Shown: positions 19,268-37,795 of the stretch, piece by piece
Layout: every line of letters begins with the position of its first letter
Numbering within the stretch: the first letter of the stretch is position 1
Assembly (NCBI GenBank): GCA_009758405.1
Contig: WSBC01000004.1
Location: 178,634-242,633, forward strand
Source: Methanobacteriota archaeon
Lineage (GTDB): Archaea > Thermoplasmatota > Thermoplasmata > Thermoplasmatales > ARK-15
DNA: 64,000 nt
Direction of reading: 5' to 3'
The notes under the pieces: generated by a model
The model's input: only the letters and a program-made list of their open reading frames with translations
Database searches by the model: none
Told to the model about the DNA's origin: nothing
Made by a program: the position numbers and the translations under genes

Positions 19268-19327
19268 AAATATTTTCAAAGAAAGGTTTATTAAATATTT
19301 TTCTATATAAGAATAGGGTGTATTTTG

Positions 19328-20440
19328 ATGAAGGTGACATTGAGTTTGATAAAAGCGGATGTTGGTGGATATCCTGGGCATTCTTCTGTTCATCCAATGC
19401 TTAAAGAAAAGGCAGCTGAAATGCTTGAGAATGCAAAAAATAATGGTCTTTTAATAGATTATAGGGTAGTTGGTGTTGGGGATGATCTTCAGTTAATAAT
19501 GACACATAAATTTGGTGAAGATAATGAGAAGATTCACAAGCTAGCATGGGATACGTTCAAAGAGGCAACAGAAATAGCAAAGAAATTGAAACTCTATGGA
19601 GCGGGCCAGGATCTTTTAAAGGATGCTTTCTCTGGTAACGTAAGGGGCCTTGGCCCAGGTATTGCTGAGATGTCATTTGAGGAAAGAAAAGGAGAGCCTG
19701 TGGTTGCTTTCATGATGGATAAGACAGAACCTGGTGCTTTTAACCTTCCAATTTTTAGAATGTTTGCAGACCCATTCAATACACCTGGCCTTGTTATTGA
19801 TCCAACAATGCATGATGGTTTTCTATTTGAGGTTTGGGATATAATGGAACACAAAAGGGTGATGATAAAATCTCCTGAGGAACTTTATGATCTTCTTGCA
19901 TTAATTGGTGCTAAAAGCAGATATGTTATTAAAAGGGTATTTCCATCGGAGAGACATCCCAAAATACCAAAAAGTGAGCCTGTAGCAGTTATTTCTACGG
20001 AAAAACTTTACCAGATTGCTGGAGAATATGTGGGTAAGGATGATCCTGTTGCACTTGTAAGGTCACAATCGGGTTTACCAGCCCTAGGTGAGGTCCTAGA
20101 GCCCTTCTCATTCCCCCATCTTGTATCTGGATGGATGAGAGGGTCTCATAATGGGCCAATTATGCCTGTTGGTTTAAAGGATGCAAAATGCACAAGATTT
20201 GATGGGCCACCAAGGGTAGTAGCCTTGGGATTCCAGCTCTCAGAGGGAAAGCTTGTTGGGCCTGTTGACCTATTTGATGACCCTGCATTTGACAATGCGA
20301 GAAAAATGGCTAATGAGATTGCAGATTACATGAGGAGGCATGGTCCTTTCGAGCCACACAGGCTACCTCTGGAAGATATGGAATACACAACACTACCAAA
20401 AGTTATGGAAAAATTGAAAAACAGATTTGAAAAAATTTAA
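19328..20440 (+). CDS. fbp: Bifunctional fructose-1,6-bisphosphate aldolase/phosphatase
   Basis: This ~370-residue archaeal type V FBP aldolase/phosphatase condenses DHAP and GAP and dephosphorylates the product to fructose 6-phosphate, making gluconeogenesis unidirectional. Signature segments are SLIKADVGGYPGHSSVHP at the N-terminus, VGDDLQLIMTH (metal site), GLGPGIAEMSFEER, FNLPIFRMFADPFNTPGL and the C-terminal FDGPPRVVALGFQ. ATG 19328 is preferred to the in-frame TTG 19325. It is transcribed alone and divergently from the nitroreductase. Confidence 0.96.
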   Translation: MKVTLSLIKADVGGYPGHSSVHPMLKEKAAEMLENAKNNGLLIDYRVVGVGDDLQLIMTHKFGEDNEKIHKLAWDTFKEATEIAKKLKLYGAGQDLLKDAFSGNVRGLGPGIAEMSFEERKGEPVVAFMMDKTEPGAFNLPIFRMFADPFNTPGLVIDPTMHDGFLFEVWDIMEHKRVMIKSPEELYDLLALIGAKSRYVIKRVFPSERHPKIPKSEPVAVISTEKLYQIAGEYVGKDDPVALVRSQSGLPALGEVLEPFSFPHLVSGWMRGSHNGPIMPVGLKDAKCTRFDGPPRVVALGFQLSEGKLVGPVDLFDDPAFDNARKMANEIADYMRRHGPFEPHRLPLEDMEYTTLPKVMEKLKNRFEKI

Positions 20441-20443
20441 CTA

Positions 20444-20833
20444 TTATTTTTTTAATTCAAAAATTGCTATTTTTTCTAATTCTTCGAGTATTTTTTCATT
20501 GGTATTATTCTCATCTTCAATCTCAGTCAATCCATAATCAGCTGGATTAAAATCACCATCGAAGATTATGTAATTAATCTCAGATTTTCCAGCTCCAAAC
20601 TTTTCTATTGCCCTTGAAACCTGTCTGTCACCTGAAAGATATAACATAATTTCAGTTCCTAAATCCCTGCTTATATTTGTACCCTCATTGAAGGCCCTTT
20701 CTGCCTTTAAATATGCACTTTCCAATATCCTTCTTGATATTATAAATTCACCATTCAATAAAATGATCTTCCCGCTCCTAGCCATTGATAATAATTCATC
20801 AACTATTTTTCCTTTAACCTTAACTATTTTCAT
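20444..20833 (-). CDS. KEOPS complex subunit Cgi121
   Basis: This 129-residue protein matches the Cgi121/TPRKB family, with segments [23 protein letters not shown] and [13 protein letters not shown] and the acidic FDGD after them. Cgi121 binds Bud32 and tRNA CCA ends in KEOPS, which makes N6-threonylcarbamoyladenosine at tRNA position 37. Its ATG overlaps the lonB stop by 4 bases, a coupling that has no obvious functional explanation. A tRNA t6A methylthiotransferase is encoded at 61569-62756, so t6A chemistry appears twice in this window. Confidence 0.82.
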
Positions 20834-22737
20834 GCCAACACTGGGATTTTTATGACTGCCTTTAAATCGTTTATAAGTCTCTCCTTCTGCGGGGAATCCT
20901 TTAATGAGTGCTCCAGTACATCAATTATTGTTTCTACAGGAACTACCTCAATTTTGTCCTTGTGGTGTTCATCAAGGATCACGTCCTGTAGGTTGCTTTG
21001 AGGTATTATTACCTTCTTAAATCCAGCCTCAATTGCAGCCTCCACCTTTGCTGAAATTCCACCCACTGGAAGTACCTGGCCCCTTATGCTTAGGGAGCCT
21101 GTCATAGCCACACTCTGATCAACCGGTATATTCTCTAGGGCAGATATAACCGCGGTTGCTATAGATATACTTGCAGAGTCACCTTCAACACCTTCATATG
21201 TTCCAATGAATTGTATGTGAACGTCATGGTTGGATATGTCCTCACCGCTGTATTTTTTCACGATTGCAGAAACATTCTGGACTGCCTCCTTGGCAATTTC
21301 CCCAAGTTTGCCAGTTGCAATCACTCTTCCCTGGTTCCTGCTCTGTGCAGGTGTTACCTCTGCTACTATGGGAAGTACCATTCCAGAAAATTCTGCCATG
21401 CCACTCTGGGCACTGTAAACTGCAAGACCGTTGACTGTGCCTATTGCAAAGCCCCTGTTAAGGAAGGTCCTGTATTCCTTCCTCATCTCAATCATCCTAT
21501 CCGCAATTTGCTGTTCAAGTGGTCTAGCAGATCTTTTTGCAAGTATTACATGATCTACAGTTACAATGTTTGAATTCTGGGATCTGGCTATATCTCCGGC
21601 CACCCTTATAAGTCCACCCAACTCCCTCAACCTCAATGTAAGTCTATCCTTTCTTCCCGCCCTTTTCTGAGCCTCTTTAATTATTTCCGCAACTGCCATC
21701 TTTTCGAAGTGCGGTATCTTTCCATCCTTTTTTACCTCCTGGGCAACGAACCTTATCAATTTTTTCCTGTTTTCTTCATTATCCTCCATGCTGTTGTTCA
21801 TATATATCTCATAGCCATAGCCTCTAATCCTGGATCTTAATGCAGGATGCATACCCTCAACTGAATCTATGTTGCCTGCTGCAACAAGTATAAAGTCGCA
21901 TGGGACTGGTTCTGTCTGAACAAGTGCGCCCGCACTCCTTTCACTCTGCCCAGTTATGGCGAATTTCTTTTCCTGCATTGCTGTCAAGAGTGCCTGCTGG
22001 CTCTCTGGCCTGAGGAGATTTATTTCATCTATGAATAATACCCCCTTATTTGCCTTGTGTATAGCACCTGCCTCTACCCTTATATGTGGGGGTGTTTCAA
22101 GACCACCTGACTGGAATGGATCGTGCCTCACATCACCAAGAAGGGCACCTGTATGTGCACCTGTTGCATCTATGAAGGGGGGTTTATCGCTAGGGTCATG
22201 CGCTACGAGAAGCTTTGGAACAAGGTTTTGTTCTGTTCTCTGAACCGCCATACCTAAGAATATCCATAGAAATATAACCAGGAGTATGCTGGTAAAAAGT
22301 ATGGTAAAATCACGAGTAAATATATATGCAACAACACCCAGAAGAACAAGACTAAAAAGTGTAAGCTGAAGGAACCTTTGTCTTTCCATCTTCTCCTGTT
22401 TGGCCCTATCCTGCATCTGTTTAACAAGCTCCTTACCCTTGCCCGCAGGAAGTGTCTTTACCCTAGGCCTGTTTGGATCTTCCTCATTTGGAAAAACAAG
22501 TATGTCCTCAAGATCCTCCTTTGGAAGAAAATCCACCATTGATTGAGCAAGCATGGATTTGCCTGTTCCTGGATCACCCACAAGTATAACATGTCTTTTT
22601 TGAACCGCTGCCTTCTTTATAATCTCAACTGCCTCATCCTGTCCTATTACCTGGTCTATCAACCTTTGTGGGACCTCGATATCGGCAGTTGTATTAAATT
22701 CCTGCCTTTTAATCCAATCATCTACCTTTTCTTCCAT
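20830..22737 (-). CDS. lonB: Membrane-anchored archaeal Lon protease (LonB)
   Basis: This 635-residue ATP-dependent protease has an AAA+ module with Walker A GDPGTGKS (54-61) and Walker [12 protein letters not shown] two-helix transmembrane hairpin inserted at ~121-167 tethers it to the cytoplasmic face. The C-terminal protease domain has the Ser-Lys dyad S521 (EGDSAS) and K564 (GGISAKVE). It is the main membrane-bound quality-control protease of archaea, which lack FtsH. It lies downstream of the opp operon on the same strand (24-base gap) and is coupled to the Cgi121 gene. Confidence 0.96.
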
Positions 22738-22761
22738 TCTCCCTTCAACATTTACCTTATA

Positions 22762-23187
22762 TTAATAAATCTTTCTACCAGCATAATATACATCAGAGAT
22801 ATACCCGCCAGGTATTATTCCAAGGATAAGACCAAAAAGAGTTACAAAGAATGGAACAAAAGTGAACTTAATGTAAATAAAATAATAGTAGCTTACATCA
22901 AATGGTGCTATTCCAAAAAATAATGGAAATGAATAATAGACGAGTGAGATTCCGTAGGAAATAAAGATTGTTAGTATAATTGACAAAAATGCTTCATCAA
23001 TATTGTCCAGATAAAATGTTGTGAACATTCCAACTGGGATTGAAAAAACAAAAAATAGTAATGCATAGTTCATCAATATATCTCCTATGGGTGGAAAAGA
23101 AATGTTGGGAAAATAAAATGAGAAGAAAAATAGGGATATTATAAAACTATCTAGTAAAGATATAAAAAATATTTTTAATAACCTCAT
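22762..23187 (-). CDS. Hypothetical membrane protein, four TM segments
   Basis: This 141-residue, strongly hydrophobic protein has about four predicted transmembrane helices and almost no charged loops. The last helix is followed by GGYISDVYYAGRKIY. I do not recognise a family. It overlaps the upstream single-TM protein by 4 bases and lies between the oligopeptide ABC ATPase and lonB, so it is probably part of the same transcript. Confidence 0.65.
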   Translation of the reverse strand: MRLLKIFFISLLDSFIISLFFFSFYFPNISFPPIGDILMNYALLFFVFSIPVGMFTTFYLDNIDEAFLSIILTIFISYGISLVYYSFPLFFGIAPFDVSYYYFIYIKFTFVPFFVTLFGLILGIIPGGYISDVYYAGRKIY

Positions 23188-23729
23188 GCTTTACCACTCC
23201 AGTCAATCTCCATCATCACCATTTCAGTCAGATAGTACCTTTCAGGGCTATAATTCTCCCCTGGGTTCTCGTAATAATAAAGGAAACCTGAAAATCTTAC
23301 CTTTATCTGAATTGTAATGTTCAATATTGTGGAATTTTGAAGAAGGTTCTGATACTGATTATATGCCTTAACATAATATGTTATATTTTTCAAAGAATTC
23401 GGACCAATACTAAATGGAAATTCTTCGTAAAAATAATAGTCTCTCTGGAATGTTGCAACTGTTTTGTTTTCTACATAAAATATCGCTGTTAATGAGTAAA
23501 AATTAATTGTGTATGGTGATGGATTTTTAAATAGTATATCGAGAACGATTGTACCATTCATTTCATCAATGTTTTTGTGAACAGCCAAGGGATTTTCTCC
23601 TATCACCTTGTTCCTATAAAGTAAAACATTTGCATAATTATCTGCAGATATTATGCCAGACAATAAAAAGAATAATGAGATTATTGAAAAAATAATTAGA
23701 GAGATCCTTTTTCCATCAATACTTCTCAT
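23184..23729 (-). CDS. Anchored extracytoplasmic protein with LEA14/WHy-like segment
   Basis: This 181-residue protein has one N-terminal hydrophobic anchor (~10-28) and an external domain. The stretch around residues 60-115 (IVLDILFKNPSPYTINFY, then PFSIGPNSLKNITYYV) has the N-P-[ST] turn and alternating strands of the LEA14/water-stress-hypersensitivity beta-sandwich. Several N-x-S/T sequons support an outside location. It overlaps the OppF gene and the next membrane protein by 4 bases each. The domain call rests on pattern only. Confidence 0.6.
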   Translation of the reverse strand: MRSIDGKRISLIIFSIISLFFLLSGIISADNYANVLLYRNKVIGENPLAVHKNIDEMNGTIVLDILFKNPSPYTINFYSLTAIFYVENKTVATFQRDYYFYEEFPFSIGPNSLKNITYYVKAYNQYQNLLQNSTILNITIQIKVRFSGFLYYYENPGENYSPERYYLTEMVMMEIDWSGKA

Positions 23730-24760
23730 GCCTGCGCTTTTACCTCTCCCGTAGGCTTTAATTCTCCACTAAGTATCTTTTCCACAAAATGGCAGGCAAC
23801 AAAATGCCCCTTCTTTATTTCCCTTAGCTCTGGATCCTTTACATCGCATACTCCCTTCTGGAAATACACGCATCTTGATGCAAACCTGCAACCCGGTGGA
23901 AGATTTATCGGGCTGGGGATATCACCCTTTATTGGAATCCTTTCATGCTTTCTCTCAGGGTCAGGAACTGGCACAGCACTTAGAAGAGCCCTTGTGTATG
24001 GATGCAGAGGATCAAATATTATGCTTTCCGTTGGACCCTCTTCCACCACCTTCCCTAGGTACATTACTAAAATTTTATCACTCATGTATCTTGCCACAGC
24101 TATGTCATGTGTAATAAAAATTATTGGTAGATTGTATTTTTCCTTTAAATCCAGCATCAGATTTAGAACACCAGACCTTATTGATACATCCAACATTGAA
24201 ACTGGTTCATCGGCAACTATGAATTTTGGATTTATAATTAATGCCCTTGCAATAGCTACCCTCTGCCTTTGACCTCCTGACAACTCATGCGGGTACCTGC
24301 CTATATACTCCTCTCCTGGTTTCAGCCCTGCTTCTTCAAGTGCCTTAATAGCGAGATCTACCCTTTCTTCATACGTTTCACCAATACCATTAACGATTAA
24401 TGGTTCTGTAAGTGTTTTAAATATTGTAAACCTTGGATTGAGTGATTCATAAGGATCCTGGAAAATCATCTGTACACTCTTTCTGAACTCCCTGAGCTCA
24501 TCCCCTTCAAGCTTTGTAATATCCTTACCCTTAAACATTACATTACCGCCTGTGGGCATTTCCAGCCTCACCACAACTCTTCCCGTCGTGGTTTTACCGC
24601 AACCTGTCTCACCTACAAGACCGATTATTTCACCCTCGTGGAGCTCAAAGGATATTCCATCCACTGCCTTCACCACATCGGGCTTCTTGAATGATAATAG
24701 ACCACGTGAAAGCTCATAGTATTTCTTCATGTTTTCAACTTTGAGTATTACCTCAGCCAT
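23726..24760 (-). CDS. oppF: Oligopeptide/dipeptide ABC transporter ATPase (OppF-type)
   Basis: This ~345-residue ABC ATPase has Walker A GETGCGKTT, Q-loop MIFQDPYESLNPRF, signature LSGGQRQR, Walker B FIVADEP and switch histidine ITHD. It ends with the oligopeptide HPY extension (HPYTRALLSAVP, then the Cys cluster CRFASRC, GVCD and ACHF seen in OppD/F proteins and likely binding an Fe-S cluster or metal). ATG 24760 follows GGAGGGAAG and overlaps nothing; a longer frame to 24826 would run into oppD. Confidence 0.94.
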   Translation of the reverse strand: MAEVILKVENMKKYYELSRGLLSFKKPDVVKAVDGISFELHEGEIIGLVGETGCGKTTTGRVVVRLEMPTGGNVMFKGKDITKLEGDELREFRKSVQMIFQDPYESLNPRFTIFKTLTEPLIVNGIGETYEERVDLAIKALEEAGLKPGEEYIGRYPHELSGGQRQRVAIARALIINPKFIVADEPVSMLDVSIRSGVLNLMLDLKEKYNLPIIFITHDIAVARYMSDKILVMYLGKVVEEGPTESIIFDPLHPYTRALLSAVPVPDPERKHERIPIKGDIPSPINLPPGCRFASRCVYFQKGVCDVKDPELREIKKGHFVACHFVEKILSGELKPTGEVKAQA

Positions 24761-24761
24761 A

Positions 24762-25763
24762 TTACTTCCCTCCGTAAAGTTCCCTGGCAAAATGACAGGC
24801 TGTAAAATGACCAGGTGAAATCTCAATTAATGGAGGTTCCTGCTCCATACATATATCCTTTGCATAGGGGCATCTTGGATGGAACCTGCATCCCTTTGGT
24901 GGGTTAACTAGATCCGGAGGCGATCCAGGTATGGATGCAAGCCTCCTCTTTTCACCAACTATTGTAGGGAATGATGCCATTAGTCCTTCTGTATATGGAT
25001 GTGCATAATGTTTGAACACCTCAACTGTGCTCCCTTTTTCAACTATCTTACCAGCATACATCACCGCCACCTTATTTGATACCTCTGCCACAACAGATAC
25101 ATCATGCGTAATAAGTATCATTGATATCCCTGTTTCCTTTTGCAGATTCTGTATTTCAAGTAAAATCCTGTCCTGAGTAATGACATCAAGTGCTGTTGTA
25201 GGCTCATCTGCTAGAACGAGCCTTGGACTTAAGGCCAATGCCATTGCTATCATTGCCCTCTGTTTCATACCACCGCTATACTCATGTGGATAGTTGTCTA
25301 TCCTGTCCTTTGGAATTCCAACAAACTCATATAGCCTCTCTACCTCCTTCCTAGCATCCTCATACTCTATGTCCTTGTGTGCCATTATTGCCTCTATTAT
25401 CTGATCACCCACCTTGTATACTGGATTAAATGCATTCAATGCGGCCTGGAAAATCATTGAGATATCCTTCCATCTTATTTTTCTTATCTCCTCATTGAAT
25501 ATATCAAGTGTTCCATCATCCTTCATGGATAACTTTAAGAGATCCTTGCCCTGATAAATTATCTTGCCTCCCTTTACATAGGCATTTTTTGGTAAAAGCT
25601 GTGTTATTGCATATGCTAGTGTTGTCTTTCCACTACCAGATTCACCAACAAGACCTAACGTTTCCTTGCTATCAACATCAATCGAGACATTTTCCACAGC
25701 CCTTACCCAGCCAGATGCTACCTTGTAGTGAATAGTTAAATCCTGTACTGAGAGTAGTACCAT
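24762..25763 (-). CDS. oppD: Oligopeptide/dipeptide ABC transporter ATPase (OppD-type)
   Basis: This 333-residue ABC ATPase pairs with OppF. Walker A is GESGSGKTT, the Q-loop is MIFQAALNAFNP, the signature YSGGMKQR and Walker B VLADEP. The C-terminal oligo_HPY extension has CRFHPRCPYAKDIC and ACHF cysteines. It begins 2 bases after the oppC stop and ends just before the oppF ribosome site. Confidence 0.94.
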   Translation of the reverse strand: MVLLSVQDLTIHYKVASGWVRAVENVSIDVDSKETLGLVGESGSGKTTLAYAITQLLPKNAYVKGGKIIYQGKDLLKLSMKDDGTLDIFNEEIRKIRWKDISMIFQAALNAFNPVYKVGDQIIEAIMAHKDIEYEDARKEVERLYEFVGIPKDRIDNYPHEYSGGMKQRAMIAMALALSPRLVLADEPTTALDVITQDRILLEIQNLQKETGISMILITHDVSVVAEVSNKVAVMYAGKIVEKGSTVEVFKHYAHPYTEGLMASFPTIVGEKRRLASIPGSPPDLVNPPKGCRFHPRCPYAKDICMEQEPPLIEISPGHFTACHFARELYGGK

Positions 25764-25765
25764 TT

Positions 25766-28024
25766 TTATCTCCTCCTTAATCTTGGATTTATAACCTCAT
25801 CAAAGGCCCTTCCAACAAGATAGAATGCTAGGGATAATAGTGTAATTGCAATTCCAGGCGGAAGTAACCACCATGGTGCATCTAAAACATGGCCTGTGGT
25901 CCATAGGTATTGTAGCATCATTCCCCATGTAACCGCATGTGGATCACCCATACCTAGAAAAGCAAGAGCTGCCTCAGTTATAATGGCCCCACTTACACCA
26001 AAGCTCATGTATAGGAATGTAAGGGGAAGAACATTTGGGAATATGTGAACCATCATCAGCCTGTATTTCGATGCACCGGATATCCTTGCTGCATCTATAA
26101 ATGCCCTTGATTTAAGTGATAGAACCTGTGCCCTTATAATCCTCGTTATTCCTGACCAGCTAAGGATTGCTATTACAAATATAATGTTCCAAATATTTGG
26201 ACCAAGAGAGGCGGCAAGGATAAGCATTATTACTAGGCCAGGTAATGAAAGGAATATATCAGTAATCCTCATTAAAAGTGAATCTACCCAGCCACCATAA
26301 AATCCTGATATTAGCCCAAGGAATGTACCAAGAAGCACTGAAGATATTGCTGCCACAATACCAACAACAAGTTCAGCTCTTGCTCCATAAACAAGCCACG
26401 TCCATATATCACGCCCGTATGCATCAGTACCTAGGATGTAGGTGTTACCACTGGGGTATTTACCTGGTGGAAGGGGGGCAATATTCGTTCCTATTGTCTC
26501 TTGAAGATAAAGTTTACCTGAATTTGTTATTGTACCGTAATAGTAACCCATCTGTGATGTGTAAGACAATACATTTCCTAGACCATTTATAGGTGTTCTC
26601 ATTCCACCAAGTATACTGAATGTTTGATTTATCTTCATGTTTGGTTGTAAAAGATATACATCACCTGCTGTTGTGCTTGTTATGTATCTGCTCGATCCTA
26701 CATCATAAGTTGGTATGGAGTTCATTTTGCCTTCAAGTACATTGTAAAAGGTACCATTTGATTGTACCTTTCCTGTGCTAGGTTTTACGGATGCAATAAT
26801 ACTCCTATCCCCCAGTGATGCGTATGCAAAAATCAATCCTCCCTGGGTGGGATAAAGTGACTCCAATTTATAATCTCTTAATGTAGGATTTGAAATAACA
26901 AAATAGTTATCATAAACCATCTTTCCATCAGACCTCGAATAACCTATAATTTCATTTGTATCTGTTCCCACAACAACAGTGGATTGTATTCCTGGGGAAT
27001 CACCCCAATCATATCCAAAGGTAAGGGATATTAACCTGAAACTTTTGCCTCCATTGTCCGTGTAGTTAACCTTCCAATTTAAGTATGTTTTTGATACATT
27101 GCTCGGCACATTATATCCCAATGCTTCATATCCTGCGTTCATTTTTATATTAAAACCATATGCCTCAAGGCTATCGTTTGTTGGAATGATTATCTCACTG
27201 GTGTTTAGATATCCATTTGTAATATCATTTGGATTTAAATAAATGAGTGGAGAGTTTATTACATCACTGCTTGTATTTATATATAATTTCGCTAGAGGAT
27301 TCAAATGTATTGGCTGAAGCATTCCAAAGTAGTTAAGCTGCCTGTTGTAAAATATATAAAGTATGGTTTGATTTGCATGAGAAAATGAAATGAGCGAATA
27401 TTGACCTACTGAAGGCATTATAAATGGATTGTTATAAAAGATTGATTTGTATTCTATTGTGAATGGAAGACTATAATTTCTATAAACTTTAAGATTGGAA
27501 TCGAAAATATAAAAATCCTTAGAACTATTCGCTATGTAGGTGTTTGCGTTGCTAAATGATGACATATAAGTACCAGTTTCATATAGGCTTGTAATACCCC
27601 TTGGAATTGAATAATTTATTGGACTTTTTAGATATATTTGGAGTATCTTTTGAGAGGAGTAATTATAGCCAACAGGAAATACCTGCGCCATACCCTGGCT
27701 ATTGTAAATCATTACTGCCGTTAGATTTATATTTGCACCTGGCGCTGTTACGTAATTCATTATTCCCACTGGAGGATAATCCCATGACTGTGAGTTTTGG
27801 AGGCTAACATTATAAATATCCCCCCTTATAATATCTACAGAGGGGGCAGTATAATAGGGCGTATAGGGTGTTAAGAATGGCGCGAAAACAGCCATAATAA
27901 CGAACATCAGTATTATACCTAATCCTACTAACCCTATTTTGCTTTTTTTGTATATCTGCCATCCATTCCTCATTGATCTCCAGAAAGCCCTACGTGATTC
28001 CTTCCATTTTTTAGACTGTGCCAT
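25766..28024 (-). CDS. oppC: Peptide ABC transporter permease OppC with large propeller-like insert
   Basis: This protein has 752 residues; OppC is normally ~300. TM1 (~29-52) is followed by the usual FAPFLTPYTP. About 470 residues are then inserted before the conserved LGTDAYGRDIW (L531 onward), after which the five remaining helices and the EAA loop (DAARISGASKYRLMMVHIFPN) are normal. The insert is on the outer side and rich in N-x-S/T, and its later part has repeated blade-like motifs (TDTNEIIGYSRSDGKMVY, ASLGDRSIIASVKPSTGKV, STTAGDVYLLQ) resembling a PQQ/WD-type beta-propeller. Propeller identity is inferred. It may receive substrate from the giant binding protein encoded upstream. Confidence 0.92.
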   Translation of the reverse strand: MAQSKKWKESRRAFWRSMRNGWQIYKKSKIGLVGLGIILMFVIMAVFAPFLTPYTPYYTAPSVDIIRGDIYNVSLQNSQSWDYPPVGIMNYVTAPGANINLTAVMIYNSQGMAQVFPVGYNYSSQKILQIYLKSPINYSIPRGITSLYETGTYMSSFSNANTYIANSSKDFYIFDSNLKVYRNYSLPFTIEYKSIFYNNPFIMPSVGQYSLISFSHANQTILYIFYNRQLNYFGMLQPIHLNPLAKLYINTSSDVINSPLIYLNPNDITNGYLNTSEIIIPTNDSLEAYGFNIKMNAGYEALGYNVPSNVSKTYLNWKVNYTDNGGKSFRLISLTFGYDWGDSPGIQSTVVVGTDTNEIIGYSRSDGKMVYDNYFVISNPTLRDYKLESLYPTQGGLIFAYASLGDRSIIASVKPSTGKVQSNGTFYNVLEGKMNSIPTYDVGSSRYITSTTAGDVYLLQPNMKINQTFSILGGMRTPINGLGNVLSYTSQMGYYYGTITNSGKLYLQETIGTNIAPLPPGKYPSGNTYILGTDAYGRDIWTWLVYGARAELVVGIVAAISSVLLGTFLGLISGFYGGWVDSLLMRITDIFLSLPGLVIMLILAASLGPNIWNIIFVIAILSWSGITRIIRAQVLSLKSRAFIDAARISGASKYRLMMVHIFPNVLPLTFLYMSFGVSGAIITEAALAFLGMGDPHAVTWGMMLQYLWTTGHVLDAPWWLLPPGIAITLLSLAFYLVGRAFDEVINPRLRRR

Positions 28025-28034
28025 TTTATACCAC

Positions 28035-29036
28035 CTACGCTACCCTCACTCTTGGATCAAGATATGCATAAATAAGATCGGCAATCCAGTTGAATATTAT
28101 TACAAGAAGTGCAATTATTATTGTGGTTGCCTCAACTACTGGATAATCCAGAAGACCTAAGGCCTGAATGAAAAGTAAACCTACTCCCTGATAACTGAAT
28201 ACAGTTTCTGTAAGAACTCCGCCGCCTATGGCGAAGGCCATAGATATTACGAAGCTTGTTACGAGGGGTAGAAGTGCATTCCTAGCGGCATGATTATAAA
28301 TCACTTCCTTCTCTTTTAGACCCTTTGCTATTGCAGTATCTATGTAGTTTTCACCTAGTACATCGAGCATGGAGGTCCTCATCAATAGAACTGTTCCTGC
28401 AAAGGAAATTAATGTAAGAACTATCATTGGAAGTGCCGTATGCCATAGAATATCTAAAATATAGAGACCAAGTGGCGGATTATTTCCTAAAACGGTTCCT
28501 AATATTTTATCAGTTGGATCATAAAAGTTAGCAAGAGGGAAGAGCTTTAGCTGGAATGCGAACAAAAATATAAATATCATACCGAGCCAGTAAACGGGCA
28601 TATTATAAAATATTAGTCCAACCACAACGTTACTTCCATCTAGGACTCCGCCCCTCTTCCATGCTATTACAGTACCAACGAAATATCCAATTACATATGC
28701 TATTATAGTTGCGCCTCCAAATAGAAGAAGGGTCCTTGGTATCCTCTGTATGAGAAGATTATTAACAGGCTGAACGTAATAATATGAAATACCAAAGTTA
28801 AATGTAAGCATATCCCACATATATATGAAAAATCTCTCCCACAATGGCTTGTTAAAGCCGAATAAATTTGCAAGATATTCCTTCTGTGATTCTGTCAATT
28901 GAGGATTCAGGTTCAAAAGTATTAGGGGGTTGGGCTGGTATAGGTAGAGTAACCAAAAGACAACTGCAATGATTATTACATAAGTAACCAGCGACTCCAG
29001 TGTCCTCACCAAATAATATCTAGCCAGGCCTGCCAT
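28035..29036 (-). CDS. oppB: Peptide ABC transporter permease OppB
   Basis: This 333-residue permease has six transmembrane segments. The N-terminal region (YLVRTLESLVTYVIIIAVVFWLLY) and the long external loop after TM1 are typical of OppB/DppB. The EAA coupling loop is AIAKGLKEKEVIYNHAARNALLP. It is followed 10 bases later by oppC. Upstream, 190 bases separate it from the oppA stop, including a T-rich stretch, so oppBCDF may be expressed below oppA. Confidence 0.94.
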   Translation of the reverse strand: MAGLARYYLVRTLESLVTYVIIIAVVFWLLYLYQPNPLILLNLNPQLTESQKEYLANLFGFNKPLWERFFIYMWDMLTFNFGISYYYVQPVNNLLIQRIPRTLLLFGGATIIAYVIGYFVGTVIAWKRGGVLDGSNVVVGLIFYNMPVYWLGMIFIFLFAFQLKLFPLANFYDPTDKILGTVLGNNPPLGLYILDILWHTALPMIVLTLISFAGTVLLMRTSMLDVLGENYIDTAIAKGLKEKEVIYNHAARNALLPLVTSFVISMAFAIGGGVLTETVFSYQGVGLLFIQALGLLDYPVVEATTIIIALLVIIFNWIADLIYAYLDPRVRVA

Positions 29037-29204
29037 TTAATAACTCACCTCTCCTATATTGGTGAATAGAACCATTATTACCCTTATCTCTTAATTATAT
29101 TTAATAATTTCGAATATTTTTAATTAAGAGAGAATAATAAAATACACGTTATTCTAGTTATCGTTATCTAAATTATAAAATAATATAAATCCTTAATATT
29201 ATGA

Positions 29205-29226
29205 AAAATAAATAAAAAATAAAAAA
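29205..29226 (-). terminator. T-rich archaeal terminator after oppA
   Basis: Directly after the oppA stop the coding strand reads nearly all T with a few A (complement of 29205-29226). Such U-rich runs terminate archaeal RNA polymerase without a hairpin. It could make the binding-protein mRNA more abundant than the downstream permease and ATPase mRNA. Confidence 0.5.
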
Positions 29227-32200
29227 TTATTTGGGAGGTGTTTCTCCTCCTTCCTTCTTTTCCTCTGGTGCCTTTTCTTCTGGCGTCTGCTTTACCTCAG
29301 GGGGCTTTGGCTTCCTCATTGAAAGTACCAGTGCCACTATTGCTATTATAAAGGCTAGAAGACCTAGCAATAATGATGTGTAGCCCATTGTATTGTTGAA
29401 GTAACCTGCTAATGTATTATTGAAGTGAGTCGACAGACCTCCAAGTTTGCTATTTAATGTGTTATTGAAGTATCCAGAGCTAACATAGGTTACTGGTTGA
29501 TAATAGAAGAACACTGGCTGTATTGTTGTAACATTGTTATTGTTTGTTACAGACACGAACACTGCGTTAAGTCCTGAATTGAATCCACTAACCTGCTGTG
29601 AGAATGTGTATTCTCCATTCGTTCCTGCTGTTAATGTAAGTGTAAATGGATTGTTTGGATTGTTCAGATAGAGAACTGCGCTCTTTACACCACTTGGATC
29701 CCAGACAGTACCGTTAACGTAATAGCTGGAGGTTGTCAATACCTGGTTTGGCAGTAGGCTGCTCACAGAGACCATTGGTGATGGGGAATATGCTATTATT
29801 ACAGCCGTGAATACACCACCATAGTATTGAGTTCCAGTTGCCTTAACCGTAACCGTATCGATCACGTAAGGCGTACCAACCACAAGACCGCTTACAGGTA
29901 CTAATGTGAACACTGCATTGCCGTTTGCATCGGTGGTTGAAGGTCCGGAAACCGTTCCAGAAGATGCACTTACTGACAATTTTGCACCTGATATTGGTGA
30001 GCCAGTTGCATCATATACACTAACACTCATTGTCACTGGGGATCCATATGCAACAGATGATGAGCTCAATTTTGCCATCACATTTGCCTGGTATGGTACT
30101 ACTATAATCTGTGTGCTTTCTGTGATTGCTGCCATTCCCCATTTACTTGCTCCCTTATTCCAGTATATATAAAGATCTCCTACTGTTAAGGAAGATAACT
30201 TAGATGCGCTAAATGTAATATTTGTTATCCCTTGAACATTTGTTGTATTCCATGCCCTATTTCCATTTGTAATTGGATAGCTATAAGAAAGATTATATCC
30301 ACCTGAAGGAACATAACCTAGCATATCATAGAGTGTGAAGTTGTAGTATCCTAATACCTTAGTTGGTATTACTGTCTTTGACATTGCATATATATTACCT
30401 TTCAAGGGAACATCTGTTGAATTATATGCATGTACGGTCACAGTAACATTCTGGCCTGGGAATACAAATGGCTTGTTTACAGTGAATGTTGTTATTACAT
30501 AATCTGGAGCTCTCTGGATAGCAAGCTGAGACTGTATGTATTCAGTACCAGTCATATAGAAGTTACCATTTACTGGAATTCCTGCTGGATATTTCCCTTC
30601 AACAGGATAATATGTATAGGCGTAGGGTATCACGTAAACATTGCTTACTCTGTCAACCATAGGTGAACCTGCATTTGGAAAGATGTAATAATCTCCCGTT
30701 CCATTTACCACATAAGAGTTGTTCACATAAATACCATAGTTGAACGGATTATAGACATAGTCGAAGAGTGTATAGTTGGCTACATTCAATGCTTTCAATG
30801 TGGCATTTATTTGATCTGAAGTATTCAAACATCCATATTCCATATCAGCAACAGTTGTTGCGTTAAAGTAAGGATCTACTATCTTATTATCAAGCTGGCT
30901 GACAAAGACTCCAGCAACAGGTGGCAAGAAGCCCATGTATGTTGTATTAACATTTATTGCAACATATTCCCAAAGTGAATCAAAGTAACCGGATAATGCA
31001 TTTGTCCATGATGGATCGTAAAATCCAAGCAAGCTACCCTCTGGGGCTGCAGTGAGTATAACACCCACAGGCACATTTCCACTTACAGGCTTGTTAGTTG
31101 AATTATATAGATGAACTACCATCTCATCTCCAGCATTTCCACCTGCAATTGTCACAAAGTTCGTTGGAGCTCCTGTAACACCATCGTAGAAGTCTATATA
31201 GCCTGCATATAGATTCGGCGGTGCAGCACCATTGAGATAACCTATTGTTATTGAGCTACCGACAGAATTAAGGAATTTAGAATTCCATATCTTTAGAGAT
31301 ATTGCTGTTGTCTTTAATCCTGAATTGAATGTAACAGTTATGTTTGCATAGCCATTTGCATTTGTAACATTGCCAGTAACACTATTAACATACGTTGAAT
31401 TTGAGGGTGTAACTGTCAAACTTTCATTTGCTATGGGCTGGTTCTGTGCGTTCAATGCCTGTACAGTTATTGTTGTCTTTAAATTGGTCTGATTAACAAA
31501 ATAGTTTGTTGCACCTATTATCCTCACAGTATACCATGAGCTAGGATTTGAATTGTATGTTGCAACTATAAGGCTCTCAGTGTTTGTAGTTACATATCCA
31601 GGTTTGCTTACACTAAGTAATATCTTAGATGTTAGATGCATGTTTATATATTTAGTTGCAAGAGCTGTTGCATTAACTGTGGTAAATGTCATCTGGGCAG
31701 TTCCATTTGAATCTGTTGTGACATTTACTGGTGTTATTGTACCATAGCCAAGTAGATTCGTTGCAACTGATACAGTTGCATTAGGCACTGGGTTTCCATA
31801 CTGGTCAGTGACCTGAATATTTATTGTTGTATTCTGCCCAGCCATAAGTGAAGGCTTAGTTGCATATGCGTTTATATAAAGGATATTTGGCACATACTGT
31901 ACTGAATCTATCGCATAGGATGTTGTAACGGACATTCCATTGTAAGTTACCTTTGCAACAAGGTTATCGAAGCCTGGATGAACACCTAATACATATGTAG
32001 TAAATATACCCGCTGAGTTTGTCACTCCCGTGGATGATAATACTGTAACATTTCCGGTTGTACTTGTAATGTTAACAAATGCACCGGGCACTGGAAGTCC
32101 ATTGTTATCTGTAACAAGAACGTTCACTGGAACACTTGTGAGTGCTACATTAAACTGGCTCTGAGGCACGAATACCTTTGAGGGTGCGGCTATCTGAGCT

Positions 32201-34134
32201 ACTAGATAATGAGTAACAGGTGGATATGTTATCTGCCCTACTGTTTGCTGTGTTGTTGTTCCAGTTCCTACACCAACAACAGCACCCTTATGTATTGATG
32301 TTAATGCATATAGATTATAAACAGAGCCCTCCCATGAGAACCATCCAGTCCAGGTGTTGAGTGTTGCTTCAACGTTTACCCTATAGTACAATACATTGCA
32401 GGGTACGGCCTCGCTCAATATTCCCTGTGCCCATTTTGTATAGTATATCTGTTTTGAAACATCGAATGTTGTCAAGGCCTGATTTATTACATTCTGGAAC
32501 TTAAGTGCCAATGCTGATGTATTTGGATCTGCAAGTGATTTCACGTTCGGATAGTTGGGATTAGTATAGTTTGGTGGCCAGAATGCCCAAGTATTCTGCA
32601 TTGCACCTATTCCATAAATATCTGCAAGGTTTCCAATAGGATCTGTAGAAAGTGACCAACCAAGTGTTAGCATCTGGTAGTTGAATGCTGTCATTTGAGC
32701 AACAAGTGCATCAAAGTTTATTGCCTTTGCCTGTGCATTTATGCCAATTGCCCTCATCTCAGAAGCCAAAGACTCACCAATCTTTACCCTTATGGGGTCA
32801 TAATCTGCAGGCGGTGTTAGTATTATTATCTGTGGCATTGGACTTCCATCTGGCATTAGCCTCCATCCATTTGGTCCAATTGGATATCCACTTTCATTTA
32901 ATATAGCTGAGGCAGTTGATGGGGAGAATGGATACCTTACCACTGAAGAGTTATACCAGGCTGTAAAGAAGGGTGGTTCTGTTGAATCACCTGCCTGGCC
33001 CAATCCTCCCATATAGTTCTGGACTATTGTTGTTTTATCGAGAAGGTATGATATTGCATGCCTGAAGTTTATATCGTTCATTGGCTTCTGTGCCTCGTTG
33101 AATGCAAGATAGAAGTAACCCCTATCAGGGCTCTTGAACAATGTTATCTGTGGATCTGCTGCAAGTGATGGCACATAACCTGCGGGTATTGTCCAGGCTA
33201 TATAATCCACATCCCCAGATTCAAGTGCAAGAACTGCTGTATCTAGGCTTGAATAAACCTTAAAGTATATTTGTGTAACATTTTGTGGATATATATGATA
33301 TCCAGCCGGGGTCACAAAATTCTTCCCCCAGTAGTTTGTATTGAGTGCTATAACTCTATAGGATCCGGGCACACCAGTTACATAATAATATTGGCCTGTT
33401 CCCATTGTTGCCATTGGATCAGTGTTCCAGGTTGTGTCAATTACACCTGCAGTTGTTCCATTTGCATTTACAACAGTACTTTGATTATCTCCAGAGACAC
33501 CATCCGGCTTTATATGGTTGGCCCAGACCTTCCAGGGTATTATTGGAATTCCTAGTGTATTCAAGAAGAACTGTGCATAAACCTGCCTCATGCTTATCTG
33601 TACTGTGAACTGATCTATATACTTAACATGGTTTACTATTTCATTGTATTCAACTATACCATCATTGTTATCATCGAATGGTATAAGGAATGTTGATCCA
33701 GAGAATGTTGTACCAAACCTCTCCACACAGTATGAAAATACTACATCCTTTGCAGTAAGTTCATATGCAGGTGTTCCATTTCCAGGATATACAAAGTATA
33801 CACCCTGCCTTATATGTATTGTCACAACAGGCTCTGATGGGTTGCTTGTATTAACAGTATAATTCTGTGCTAGCCAGGGGATTGCACTCCCATCGTAGTC
33901 CATACCAAATAGAGAATCCCATCCCCAGCCTATAACATCGGTCTTCCATACAGTATTAGATGCTATATCGAAGTAATTGAAGTTTGGCATATCCTGCTGC
34001 ATTGCTATGTAAAGTGTACCTGAAGAGGAGCTAGGTGTGACTGTGCTTGCATGGCTCATGGCTGAAAATCCACTGATAAACACTATCGCTACTAAAGCAG
34101 TCGCTATAAACAACTTGCTTACTTTTTTATTCAT
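29227..34134 (-). CDS. oppA: Giant membrane-anchored oligopeptide-binding protein with Ig-like repeats
   Basis: At 1635 residues this is about three times a normal OppA. In order: signal peptide (1-29), SBP_bac_5 peptide-binding domain (~38-620) with an EF-hand-like loop at 154-165 (DDNNDGIVEYNE), then three invasin-like Big_1/Ig domains (~660-960), each with a DxxGxPVPxAxVxV core. A sequon-rich spacer and a fourth such domain (~1350-1450) follow, then three FNNT repeats, a transmembrane helix (1587-1605) and a charged Pro/Glu/Lys tail. The C-terminal anchor replaces the lipid anchor, as expected without a wall. An AGGAGG ribosome site precedes the ATG. Confidence 0.93.
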   Translation of the reverse strand: MNKKVSKLFIATALVAIVFISGFSAMSHASTVTPSSSSGTLYIAMQQDMPNFNYFDIASNTVWKTDVIGWGWDSLFGMDYDGSAIPWLAQNYTVNTSNPSEPVVTIHIRQGVYFVYPGNGTPAYELTAKDVVFSYCVERFGTTFSGSTFLIPFDDNNDGIVEYNEIVNHVKYIDQFTVQISMRQVYAQFFLNTLGIPIIPWKVWANHIKPDGVSGDNQSTVVNANGTTAGVIDTTWNTDPMATMGTGQYYYVTGVPGSYRVIALNTNYWGKNFVTPAGYHIYPQNVTQIYFKVYSSLDTAVLALESGDVDYIAWTIPAGYVPSLAADPQITLFKSPDRGYFYLAFNEAQKPMNDINFRHAISYLLDKTTIVQNYMGGLGQAGDSTEPPFFTAWYNSSVVRYPFSPSTASAILNESGYPIGPNGWRLMPDGSPMPQIIILTPPADYDPIRVKIGESLASEMRAIGINAQAKAINFDALVAQMTAFNYQMLTLGWSLSTDPIGNLADIYGIGAMQNTWAFWPPNYTNPNYPNVKSLADPNTSALALKFQNVINQALTTFDVSKQIYYTKWAQGILSEAVPCNVLYYRVNVEATLNTWTGWFSWEGSVYNLYALTSIHKGAVVGVGTGTTTQQTVGQITYPPVTHYLVAQIAAPSKVFVPQSQFNVALTSVPVNVLVTDNNGLPVPGAFVNITSTTGNVTVLSSTGVTNSAGIFTTYVLGVHPGFDNLVAKVTYNGMSVTTSYAIDSVQYVPNILYINAYATKPSLMAGQNTTINIQVTDQYGNPVPNATVSVATNLLGYGTITPVNVTTDSNGTAQMTFTTVNATALATKYINMHLTSKILLSVSKPGYVTTNTESLIVATYNSNPSSWYTVRIIGATNYFVNQTNLKTTITVQALNAQNQPIANESLTVTPSNSTYVNSVTGNVTNANGYANITVTFNSGLKTTAISLKIWNSKFLNSVGSSITIGYLNGAAPPNLYAGYIDFYDGVTGAPTNFVTIAGGNAGDEMVVHLYNSTNKPVSGNVPVGVILTAAPEGSLLGFYDPSWTNALSGYFDSLWEYVAINVNTTYMGFLPPVAGVFVSQLDNKIVDPYFNATTVADMEYGCLNTSDQINATLKALNVANYTLFDYVYNPFNYGIYVNNSYVVNGTGDYYIFPNAGSPMVDRVSNVYVIPYAYTYYPVEGKYPAGIPVNGNFYMTGTEYIQSQLAIQRAPDYVITTFTVNKPFVFPGQNVTVTVHAYNSTDVPLKGNIYAMSKTVIPTKVLGYYNFTLYDMLGYVPSGGYNLSYSYPITNGNRAWNTTNVQGITNITFSASKLSSLTVGDLYIYWNKGASKWGMAAITESTQIIVVPYQANVMAKLSSSSVAYGSPVTMSVSVYDATGSPISGAKLSVSASSGTVSGPSTTDANGNAVFTLVPVSGLVVGTPYVIDTVTVKATGTQYYGGVFTAVIIAYSPSPMVSVSSLLPNQVLTTSSYYVNGTVWDPSGVKSAVLYLNNPNNPFTLTLTAGTNGEYTFSQQVSGFNSGLNAVFVSVTNNNNVTTIQPVFFYYQPVTYVSSGYFNNTLNSKLGGLSTHFNNTLAGYFNNTMGYTSLLLGLLAFIIAIVALVLSMRKPKPPEVKQTPEEKAPEEKKEGGETPPK

Positions 34135-34180
34135 ATTTGCTTCCTCCTTTTGCTCTCCTACCTTTTAGGCAGGATCACAA

Positions 34181-34256
34181 TCAAATAAATAGTATTATTA
34201 TATATAAATCTTGCTAGGGATTCACCAAACATGGAGAAAAATTATTTATATTAACT
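34181..34256. promoter_or_regulatory. Divergent oppA / thyX promoter region
   Basis: TATTATATATAAAT-like sequence around 34195-34207 lies upstream of oppA. TTATTTATA at 34242-34250 lies 26 bases before the thyX ATG, the distance expected for a leaderless archaeal transcript. Assignment is by pattern and spacing. Confidence 0.45.
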
Positions 34257-34271
34257 ACCATAAAGAAATAT

Positions 34272-34907
34272 ATGGAAAAATTAAAAGTAAAGCTAATCTC
34301 ATATTCTATGCTTGTGGAAAAAAAAGGGAATGATGTTAAGGATCCTGATAGGATAGTTGCTGAAAGTGGCGCAATATCCCATTCTAAGGAATTTAAAGAT
34401 TTAAGCAGTGATAAAGTAGAGCATCTAATAAATCTACTGAGGGACCTAGGTCATGAAAGTGTTTTTGAACATGTATCATTCACCTTCAGCATTGAAGGCA
34501 TATCAAGGGTATGTTCCCATCAACTTGTAAGACACAGGATGGCCTCATTTACACAACAGAGCCAGAGATATGTTCCACTTGATCCAGATTTTATTGTACC
34601 AGAAAGTATAAATAATAGTGAGTTCAAGGATGATTTCCTGAGGATACTTGAGGAATCAAGAGATCTATATAAAAAAATGGTTCAGGCGGGTATAAAAAAG
34701 GAGGATGCAAGATTTATACTACCACAGGCAGTAGAGACAAAGATAATTGTTACAATGAATGGAAGGGAGCTGAGGCATTTTATCAATCTTAGGGCAGGTA
34801 AGGAGGCACAGTGGGAAATAAGGGCAGTGGCTCTTGAAATGTTAAAACAGGCACATAAGGTTTCACCAATTTTATTTGATGATCTGTATAAAAAATTCAT
34901 TGATTAA
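34272..34907 (+). CDS. thyX: Flavin-dependent thymidylate synthase
   Basis: This 211-residue protein makes dTMP from dUMP using FAD and methylene-folate. The ThyX motif is RHRMASFTQQSQRY (the RHRxxSxxxxSxR signature), preceded by HESVFEHVSFTF. The C-terminal RELRHFINLRAGKEAQWEIR is the conserved FAD/dUMP-binding helix. It is transcribed rightward, probably leaderless, followed by a prenyl synthase gene 30 bases on. Confidence 0.97.
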   Translation: MEKLKVKLISYSMLVEKKGNDVKDPDRIVAESGAISHSKEFKDLSSDKVEHLINLLRDLGHESVFEHVSFTFSIEGISRVCSHQLVRHRMASFTQQSQRYVPLDPDFIVPESINNSEFKDDFLRILEESRDLYKKMVQAGIKKEDARFILPQAVETKIIVTMNGRELRHFINLRAGKEAQWEIRAVALEMLKQAHKVSPILFDDLYKKFID

Positions 34908-34937
34908 TTATATATAATACGTATACATTTTCAAATC

Positions 34938-35963
34938 ATGGTATTTCAGGAATATATGAAAAAATATCCACCATTAATAGAGAATGAACTGAAAAATTTT
35001 TTTAAAAAAAAGCTGAAGGATGCAAATTTTCATCCAAAGGTTCTAGAGGTTCTTAATATTATTGAGGAATATACCCTTAGGGGAGGTAAAAGGCTAAGAC
35101 CAGTACTTATGATTACAGGCTACAAACTTTATGGTGGAAAGGATGAAAATGAGATAATAAAGGCATCATGTTCAATAGAGCTTATACAATCCTATCTACT
35201 GATACATGATGATATTATAGATGAGAGTGATCTAAGGAGGGGAAGGCCTACAGTCCATAAAATTTATGAAAATTTGTATGGTGAAAGAAAATTCGGGGAA
35301 AACATGGCAATAATCGCAGGGGATCTTGCAAGTATCTATGCAGAGGAGATACTGGATGATGTCAATATAGATGAGAATCTAAAATACAGGGCTTTAATAA
35401 AAATGGCCTCTATAGTTGAGACTACAGGGTATGGTCAAGTGATTGATGTTTTTTCATCAAAGATTGATGATTTTGGTGAAGATGAGCTACTTCTATTACA
35501 CCAATACAAGACCGCAAAATACACAATTGAGGGTCCATTGATACTCGGTGCAATTCTAGCGGGTGGTGATGATTTCAAAATGATAAGTGAATATTCAATA
35601 CCTGTGGGCATTGCGTTCCAGCTTCAGGATGATATTCTTGGACTCTTTGGTAATGAGGAGACCATAGGTAAGCCCGTTACCTCCGACCTTGAGGAGGGAA
35701 AGAAAACACTGCTAATACTTAAGGCCATGGAAGATGGTAGATATAGAGATTATTTGAAAAATATTTTAGGAAAGAAGAATATTGGTATAAAAGATCTGGA
35801 GAAGGTAAGAGAAATTGTTACTAACACTGGTGCCCTTGATTATACATATTCACTTGCCAAGGAACTCATTAGAAAGGGTATAAATGCACTAGGAGATATT
35901 AATAGTGAAGAAAAAATATTTTTGAAGGAATTTGCAGAATATGTTATAGAAAGAAAATTTTAG
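34938..35963 (+). CDS. Polyprenyl (geranylgeranyl/farnesyl) diphosphate synthase
   Basis: This 341-residue trans-prenyltransferase makes the isoprenoid chains of archaeal ether lipids. The two aspartate-rich motifs are DDIIDESD with RRGRPTVH (first) and [11 protein letters not shown] (second). The N-terminal GGKRLRPVL holds the conserved IPP-binding Gly-Lys-Arg. The five residues before the first motif (SYLLIH) set the product length, but I cannot decide between C15, C20 or C25. It converges on thrS with a 4-base overlap. Confidence 0.93.
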
Positions 35964-37795
35964 ACAAATTTTACCCTCTTTGATAAAAGATAATCCTCAT
36001 TCAACCTTTTTACTGGCTTTCCCCTTATTTTTTCTCTTAATTCATCGATGAAATCAATGAGTGGTATTTCTCTTGTTTTATCCAAATACCTGTCTCTCAC
36101 ATTTAGAATTTTTTGGGATATCTCTTTATCGCCAATCACAACTATATATGGTATCCATTCCATCTCTGCCTCCCTCACCTTTTTCTGCATTGTAATCTCC
36201 CTGTCATCAACATCTACCCTTATTCCCTCTTTTTCAAAATTTTTTCCTATCTCTATTGCCTTTTCTAAATGTTTTTCTGAAACTGGAATAATTCTAACCT
36301 GAATTGGTGAAATCCAGAATGGGAATACTGGTTTCTTCCCTTCCTTCTTCATAAATTCTGCTTTTTCAAGCATTGCGTATATTACCCTTTCTATTGCTCC
36401 ACTAGGGGAACAATGAAGTATAAGGGGATATTCCCTGTTGCCATTCTCATTAATATATGTTATGTTGAATCTTTTTGCATTGTCCACATCTATCTGCACA
36501 GTGCTTAGAGCTGCAGCCTTTTTTGTATTATCCACAAAATTGAATTCAAACTTTAGAACAAAATAGAAAAATTTCTCTTCCCAGAACTGGACAAGTATGG
36601 GTTTTTTTACAAAACTACCAAGATCTTTTATGAAATTTTCGTTTTCCCTGTAAAAATCCGATGTAAACCTAACAGCCACTTCATAATCATTTAGATCAAG
36701 ACCAAAGTCCTTAAGGACAGATATTGAAAGTTTGAACTGTCTTAGAAATTCCTCCTTTGCCTTCTCTATATCTGGAACAAAGGTATGCATGTCTGGCATT
36801 GTAAATGCCCTCAACCTTCTCAGACCAACAAGTTCACCGTGCTTTTCCCTCCTGAATGAATATCTTGTCAGTTCATAAAGCCTCAGTGGCAAATTCTTAT
36901 AGGTGATCAATGCATCCTTGGCAATTAGGAATTGGCCAAAACATGCAGAAAACCTTAAAAAGTATCTGTCCTCCCCTGAGAGGACTGTATATTGTCTTGC
37001 TGGAAATCTTTGAAGATAACTCTTTAGTGCAGGATGCTCATAATCATACATTATTGGTGTTTCTACCTCCATTGCACCATAATCAATTACATAGTTTGTT
37101 ACAAGATTTTCAGCAAGGGATTTTATCAATTTTCCCCTTGGATAATACCTAAGGTTTCCTGAATCACTTCCCTCTTCATAATCCGCTATCTCAAGTGAGC
37201 GCATATATTTAACATGTGGTGGAACATCCACAACTGCCCTGGTTCCAGATATCTCATAGCTTACAAAATCCCTCAATTTTTCATAACCTGTGAAATCAAA
37301 ATTATCAATATCAAAAAGGTTACCTTCATAAAGTATTTTCCAATAAGTTTTAATTGTAGTTTCCTTTTTAAGTGCCTCGGGCTCTTCTTCGCCCCCTATT
37401 TGTTTAGAGAGCTCGGATAAGGGATGACCCTTACATGAAATTGTAAAACTTTTATACCAACCAAAGGGGGCCCTATGGACATCATATTTATCCTTTAATC
37501 CAAGTTCAATCAAGGTAAGGATTTTTTTTGCGGTTTCTGGGTCTGAAAGGTCTGAACTCAGATGGGCATATGGGTATATAACTAGCCTTTTTGCGTTTAC
37601 CTTCTCGGCAACATCAACAATCTCATCTATTGCCTTCCTTGCAACATTTTCATCATCCTTCCTTTCTACGGATATAAATGATACAAGGCAATCTTCAACC
37701 CTTTCCCATTCCTTTGTAAATTTTTCAGCAGCCTCAACTGCCTTTTCCTTAACTCTATACTCAATGAAATCCGAATGTATGAAGAGTATCCTCAT
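35960..37795 (-). CDS. thrS: Threonyl-tRNA synthetase, archaeal type
   Basis: This 611-residue class II synthetase has the archaeal N-terminal editing domain (residues ~1-140, D-aminoacyl-tRNA deacylase fold, beginning [13 protein letters not shown]). The catalytic core contains motif 2 (RRXXX around [11 protein letters not shown]), the zinc ligands C in FSACFGQF and H in LHCSPSG, and motif 3 [11 protein letters not shown]. The C-terminal anticodon domain ([16 protein letters not shown]) follows. The length matches complete archaeal ThrRS, so editing and aminoacylation are on one chain. Confidence 0.97.

Follow-up and report, generated by a model that had tools for sequence, protein, structure and literature searches.

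A predicted beta-propeller built into the OppC permease of a Thermoplasmata peptide importer and its pairing with a giant OppA

We analyzed a 64,000-nucleotide stretch of the Methanobacteriota archaeon contig WSBC01000004.1 (hereafter, the window), and found that the OppC permease of its peptide ABC importer carries an insert of 466 residues (~62-527) that separates TM1 from the LGTDxxGRD motif and is confidently predicted to fold as a compact all-beta, PQQ/BamB-like beta-propeller matching solved propellers. The original prediction had placed a built-in extracellular propeller-like domain of ~470 residues here; its coordinates proved exact, and the propeller is borne out by a confident AlphaFold2 model, by Foldseek and by Pfam matches in relatives. 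The propeller OppC and a giant OppA are parts of one transport system.

Table 1. Coordinates of the opp operon and of the OppC domains in the window
Feature	Position	Strand	Basis
OppC, permease of the peptide ABC importer, with insert	25766..28024	minus	ORF of 752 aa, ATG to stop
OppC_N domain including TM1, OppC residues 19-61	27842..27970	minus	Pfam PF12911, 8.9e-11
Inserted extracellular domain, OppC residues ~62-527, predicted beta-propeller	26444..27841	minus	AlphaFold2, Foldseek, Pfam matches of relatives
LGTDAYGRD motif, OppC residues 531-539, where the conserved permease part begins	26408..26434	minus	Direct reading and alignment
BPD_transp_1 permease domain, OppC residues 566-751	25772..26329	minus	Pfam 5.4e-28
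OppB, 333 aa, insert-free partner permease	28035..29036	minus	Pfam BPD_transp_1 9.3e-37
Giant OppA, 1635 aa	29227..34134	minus	Pfam, hydropathy
OppD ATPase, 333 aa	24762..25763	minus	Pfam ABC_tran 7.4e-27, oligo_HPY
OppF ATPase, 366 aa from TTG	23726..24826	minus	Pfam ABC_tran 5.6e-34, oligo_HPY
181-aa protein, N-terminal TM, overlaps the oppF end	23184..23729	minus	ORF, no Pfam match

The gene is the third of a complete oppABCDF operon (Table 1), which also encodes a binding protein with an SBP_bac_5 domain, OppB and two oligo_HPY ATPases, as in OppC peptide permease systems. The giant OppA has, by Pfam and hydropathy, a signal peptide, the SBP_bac_5 domain at residues 85-499, four Ig-like Big_1 stretches, and at its C-terminus a TM anchor (~1581) and a charged tail. 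For OppF, an ATG at codon 23 is a likelier start than the TTG. The gene after oppF encodes the 181-aa protein, possibly an extra operon member, which has 68% identity to its sister-genome counterpart. Three other OppCs of the same genome have no insert and lie elsewhere in the permease tree, and the binding proteins paired with these short-loop OppCs are 581-884 aa long.

Both Pfam domains of the window OppC score well above their cut-offs (OppC_N, 41.9 bits vs 23.9; BPD_transp_1, PF00528, 98.4 vs 26.4), and Pfam gave no match between them. The best of the NCBIfam equivalogs Opp4C, DppC and OppC is Opp4C with 229.5 bits, below the cut-off of 350, and the best PDB match is E. coli DppC (residues 519-750, E 2.9e-48); on such profile evidence the protein is assigned to the OppC family and to no named NCBIfam equivalog. 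Since the N-terminus ahead of the hydrophobic TM1 is strongly basic (MAQSKKWKESRRAFWRSMRNGWQIYKKSK), the positive-inside rule orients TM1 from inside to outside, and the insert should therefore be extracellular. It contains no Cys, and its description as sequon-rich reflects a modest but real enrichment, as there are 14 sequons where the composition predicts 7.8 (p = 0.011), while the permease part has none. Compared with the sister genome, amino acid identity is 82% in the insert and 97% in the permease, with dN of 0.12 and 0.02, respectively, and saturated dS; both parts are under purifying selection in this comparison. A frameshift or artefact as the source of the insert is ruled out, as dozens of genomes, the sister genome among them, have the frame open.

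AlphaFold2 modelling of OppC residues 48-540, based on an alignment of 21 sequences with homologues from named genome contigs, gave a compact, almost helix-free domain of ~30 strands (mean pLDDT 82.1, pTM 0.83); the full OppC modelled on its single sequence reached a pLDDT of 36.7. When this model was compared with the PDB using Foldseek, more than 1400 matches were obtained at E <= 0.001, and the top ones were all beta-propellers. The best matches, the designed Cake9, Cake8 and Cake10, Sqt1 and BamB, have E-values from 1.8e-11 to 1e-9 and a probability of 1.00 at moderate TM-scores (0.31-0.52 by query, up to 0.66 by target). As Cake8, Tako8, Sqt1 and BamB among the best matches are eight-bladed, the predicted propeller is probably eight-bladed as well.

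Sequence comparison supports the same fold class through relatives of the insert. Pfam found weak matches among the 37 long OppCs of the order, to Beta-prop_ACSF4 in five and to PQQ_2 in four, and in the relative L108 PQQ_2 scores 42.9 bits (5.9e-11; cut-off 27.6) and Beta-prop_ACSF4 reaches 9.9e-22. Inserts of the window type align with the group of this PQQ-positive relative in hhalign (prob 99.6, E 1e-24). PQQ_2 had no Pfam match in the window OppC itself, and a PDB sequence search using the insert profile returned nothing significant (best E 0.25). Likewise, profile self-comparison of the window-type inserts did not detect blade repeats (best off-diagonal P = 0.51); the blades appear too diverged to show as repeats, and the blade claim therefore rests on structure prediction rather than on sequence repeats. 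The repeating blade-like strands noted in the original prediction were confined there to the later part of the insert; the structure prediction does give a propeller, but one that takes up the whole insert.

Inserts at this site occur in many other archaeal OppCs. In 37 aligned OppCs of the order they span 415-549 residues with conserved junctions, and in the clade of the window the motif PLPPGxYPSGN precedes LGTD. Long-insert OppCs are found on named contigs of Aciduliprofundum sp. ARK-15 (88% identity within the segment that matched), DHVE2 archaea and other Thermoplasmata; the class-wide search returned full-length matches in many further Thermoplasmata families, and beyond the class but within the same phylum there were matches in two genomes (G349 and G354). 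OppCs with smaller inserts of ~170-200 residues at the same site are frequent in Thermoproteota, and the OppCs of bacteria and other archaea found by the same motif have mostly 280-350 aa. No relative is encoded on viral contigs. This wide distribution rules out a fusion with a secreted protein confined to the genome of the window.

In a tree of the OppC permease domain (103 rows), the propeller OppCs form two clades (support 98/92 and 100/100), both within a wider cluster that includes the mid-size forms of Thermoproteota (81/87). This topology needs two changes for the propeller OppCs, and they may still have a single origin. The OppCs at L223, L224 and L225 (family f8) have inserts of ~300 residues and OppAs of ordinary length, and lie outside the main tree cluster; theirs is probably an independent insertion. 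Accordingly, the view that permeases with such a domain are unusual holds against the solved OppC and DppC structures, but not within Thermoplasmata, where they are common. The propeller insert, common as it is in the lineage, may be undescribed, as we found no published description of it in the literature searched, many subscription papers being outside our reach.

With a profile of the giant-OppA subfamily we searched the 51 genomes of the order that are at least 90% complete, 28 with and 23 without a propeller OppC. The subfamily is present in 27 of the 51; all 27 are among the 28 genomes with a propeller OppC, and the other 23 lack it (Fisher 1.2e-13, phylogeny ignored). In the lone exception (G001), a contig edge falls just upstream of oppB, and in two genomes both genes are present at a distance from each other (~45 kb in G005, ~4 kb in G097). 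One of the 27 OppA-positive genomes (G024) has a broken oppC, in which in-frame stops cut the propeller OppC into frames of 333 and 454 aa (G024:C4:554075-556304), a pseudogene or an assembly error. The two proteins also vary together in size: over 32 loci, which are not independent of one another, the OppC loop size correlates with OppA length (Spearman 0.79), and OppA has a median length of 1530 aa in propeller systems and about 600 aa in the others (32 operons).

However, an OppC insert can do without a giant OppA, since the propeller OppCs of L221, L228 and L230 go with OppAs of 890-950 aa and the inserts of L223-L225 with ordinary ones. In the systems of L221, L228 and L230, OppB itself bears an insert of 270-376 residues with weak Ig-like matches, and it may be, although the pattern is only suggestive, that extracellular mass has shifted between subunits. 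Weakly Ig-like OppB inserts of 200-376 residues after TM1 were seen at L200:8953-10425, L221:6613-8559, L222:6796-8715 and L228:12036-13664; the OppC insert is large in all four of these systems, and OppA is short in L221 and L228.

The strongest single case for the link between propeller OppC and giant OppA is an in-situ operon replacement in G002, a genome of the same genus. Its loci L198 and L268 (G002:C10), compared with positions 19325-37795 of the window, have the same flanking genes, which by names read from their sequences are FBPase (89% identity), LonB (88%), ThyX (73%), GGPPS (73%) and ThrRS (72%), but the opp operon between them is replaced by one of the other propeller clade, with identities of only 34% for OppC, 34% for OppB, 24% for OppA and 45% for OppDF. 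The latter is a fusion of OppD and OppF, and oppBCDF is inverted relative to oppA. This operon encodes an OppC of 751 aa and an anchored OppA of 1325 aa; propeller OppC and giant OppA moved together.

The near-constant pairing with an oversized, tethered OppA suggests that the propeller is probably a dock for cargo hand-over. We judge it about equally likely to be right or wrong that the giant membrane-anchored OppA uses it as docking platform and cap at the OppBC pore. Inserted in OppC between TM1 and TM2 and most likely seated at the outer pore mouth, the propeller would catch the peptide-loaded binding domain of OppA swinging on an Ig-like tether, position it above OppBC and help to seal the cavity while the peptide is handed over. 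That such a domain might dock the giant binding protein had been proposed from the start, and it remains plausible, with indirect support from co-occurrence, size correlation and joint replacement; the contact and the sealing role are what we infer by analogy with two described systems. MalF-P2 is also an extracytoplasmic domain built into a permease subunit, and contacts the binding protein MalE (PMC3150292); the window OppC likewise has an extracytoplasmic insert in a permease subunit, to judge from the position after TM1, the basic N-terminus and the sequons confined to the insert. However, MalF-P2 has 181 residues (MalF 91-271), belongs to another permease and is not described as a propeller. 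The scoop motif of DppB in DppABCDF is likewise extracytoplasmic; it binds the substrate-binding protein, fills the DppA cleft and seals the cavity, and its loss impairs uptake (PMC12136057). The scoop, with ~30 residues in two short helices and a loop, is on DppB rather than DppC. As a counterpoint to docking, the insert is the fastest-evolving part of OppC and no conserved patch has been shown in it; in a DHVE2 relative, identity is 26% in the insert, 66% in the permease and 53% in the OppA binding domain.

This fast divergence also fits a propeller that is a structural or shielding surface module, anchoring the transporter in an S-layer or glycoprotein coat or covering the pore mouth, with no specific binding of OppA. 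The sequon enrichment, the additional Kelch propeller of some relatives (L188) and the fact that surface proteins of Thermoplasmatales and associated archaea commonly contain beta-propellers (PMC10354927, PMC5498576) point the same way. However, the propeller is strictly paired with a single OppA subfamily and was replaced jointly with it in the operon swap, which favours a role in the transport cycle, and the other OppCs in the same genome do without such a shield; we consider a surface module rather unlikely. Alternatively, the propeller itself might bind or size-select peptides, as a second receptor or a funnel over the pore that feeds or filters for OppBC. Propellers can bind ligands, a propeller channel could serve as a filter, and a position over the pore mouth would be suitable; but we identified no conserved pocket or catalytic motif, and mean column identity across the clade is 29% in the insert vs 49% in the OppA binding domain; we hold this reading quite improbable. 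It is still harder to believe, and we hold it very improbable, that the insert is a lineage-specific elaboration of little function kept by inertia. Its sequence and length vary widely (415-549 aa in the order) and short OppCs function without it, but the frame has stayed open in tens of genomes from many families, on both of the separate OppC clades, and dN is low relative to the saturated dS.

The docking reading has a bolder form, in which Thermoplasmata would have evolved a distinct type I importer: the permease-borne propeller and the stalked, membrane-anchored giant OppA would stay permanently assembled outside the membrane, as a built-in chamber for docking and sealing with which the cell would need no periplasm. 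We regard this as a doubtful extension. The original prediction had suggested that the insert could take over functions of a periplasm in an acidophile that lacks a wall. This finds no support: inserts are widespread, including in Thermoproteota, and S-layer genes predicted in A. boonei are referred to in a paper on relatives (PMC3750248). For these two reasons the premise of wall-lessness as the cause of the insert is itself doubtful, and we rejected it.

The solved OppC and DppC proteins (E. coli DppC 8z1v and OppC 8z21; M. tuberculosis DppC 8wd9 and Rv1282c 8j5q) belong to the same family and share the operon logic, but with 287-302 aa they have a short TM1-TM2 connection where the window OppC has its 466-residue domain. 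BamB and the eight-bladed PQQ_2 propellers are alike in fold class, as indicated by the PQQ_2 matches of relatives and by BamB as a top Foldseek match, but BamB acts in outer-membrane assembly as a free lipoprotein and has ~11% identity to the window insert. The mid-size OppCs of Thermoproteota (450-490 aa) share the insertion site and the wider tree cluster; their inserts are too small for a window-type propeller, and any homology between the two kinds of insert is putative.

The solved peptide ABC importers that we found come from bacteria, and their permeases are small. Peptide uptake is thought to be the main feeding route of many of these archaea, and the propeller represents a large, apparently undescribed extracellular module within a core permease family, and suggests, in a form open to testing, how archaea with a single membrane may hold a binding protein in service beside its pore. 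Propeller and short-loop OppC systems within one genome form a natural pair for study.

Other architectures were also seen. OppCs of ~1070 aa at L188:120-3332 (minus strand), L228:8820-12032 and L230:7032-10235 carry, in addition to the PQQ-like propeller, one of Kelch type that lies within it or next to it. The second propeller clade includes OppD-OppF fusions of ~706-735 aa (L186:11811-13976, L199:13170-15374 and L201:10849-12966), and at L187:541-5694 (plus strand) a single 1718-aa ORF fuses OppB, with its own insert of ~250 aa, to a long-insert OppC.
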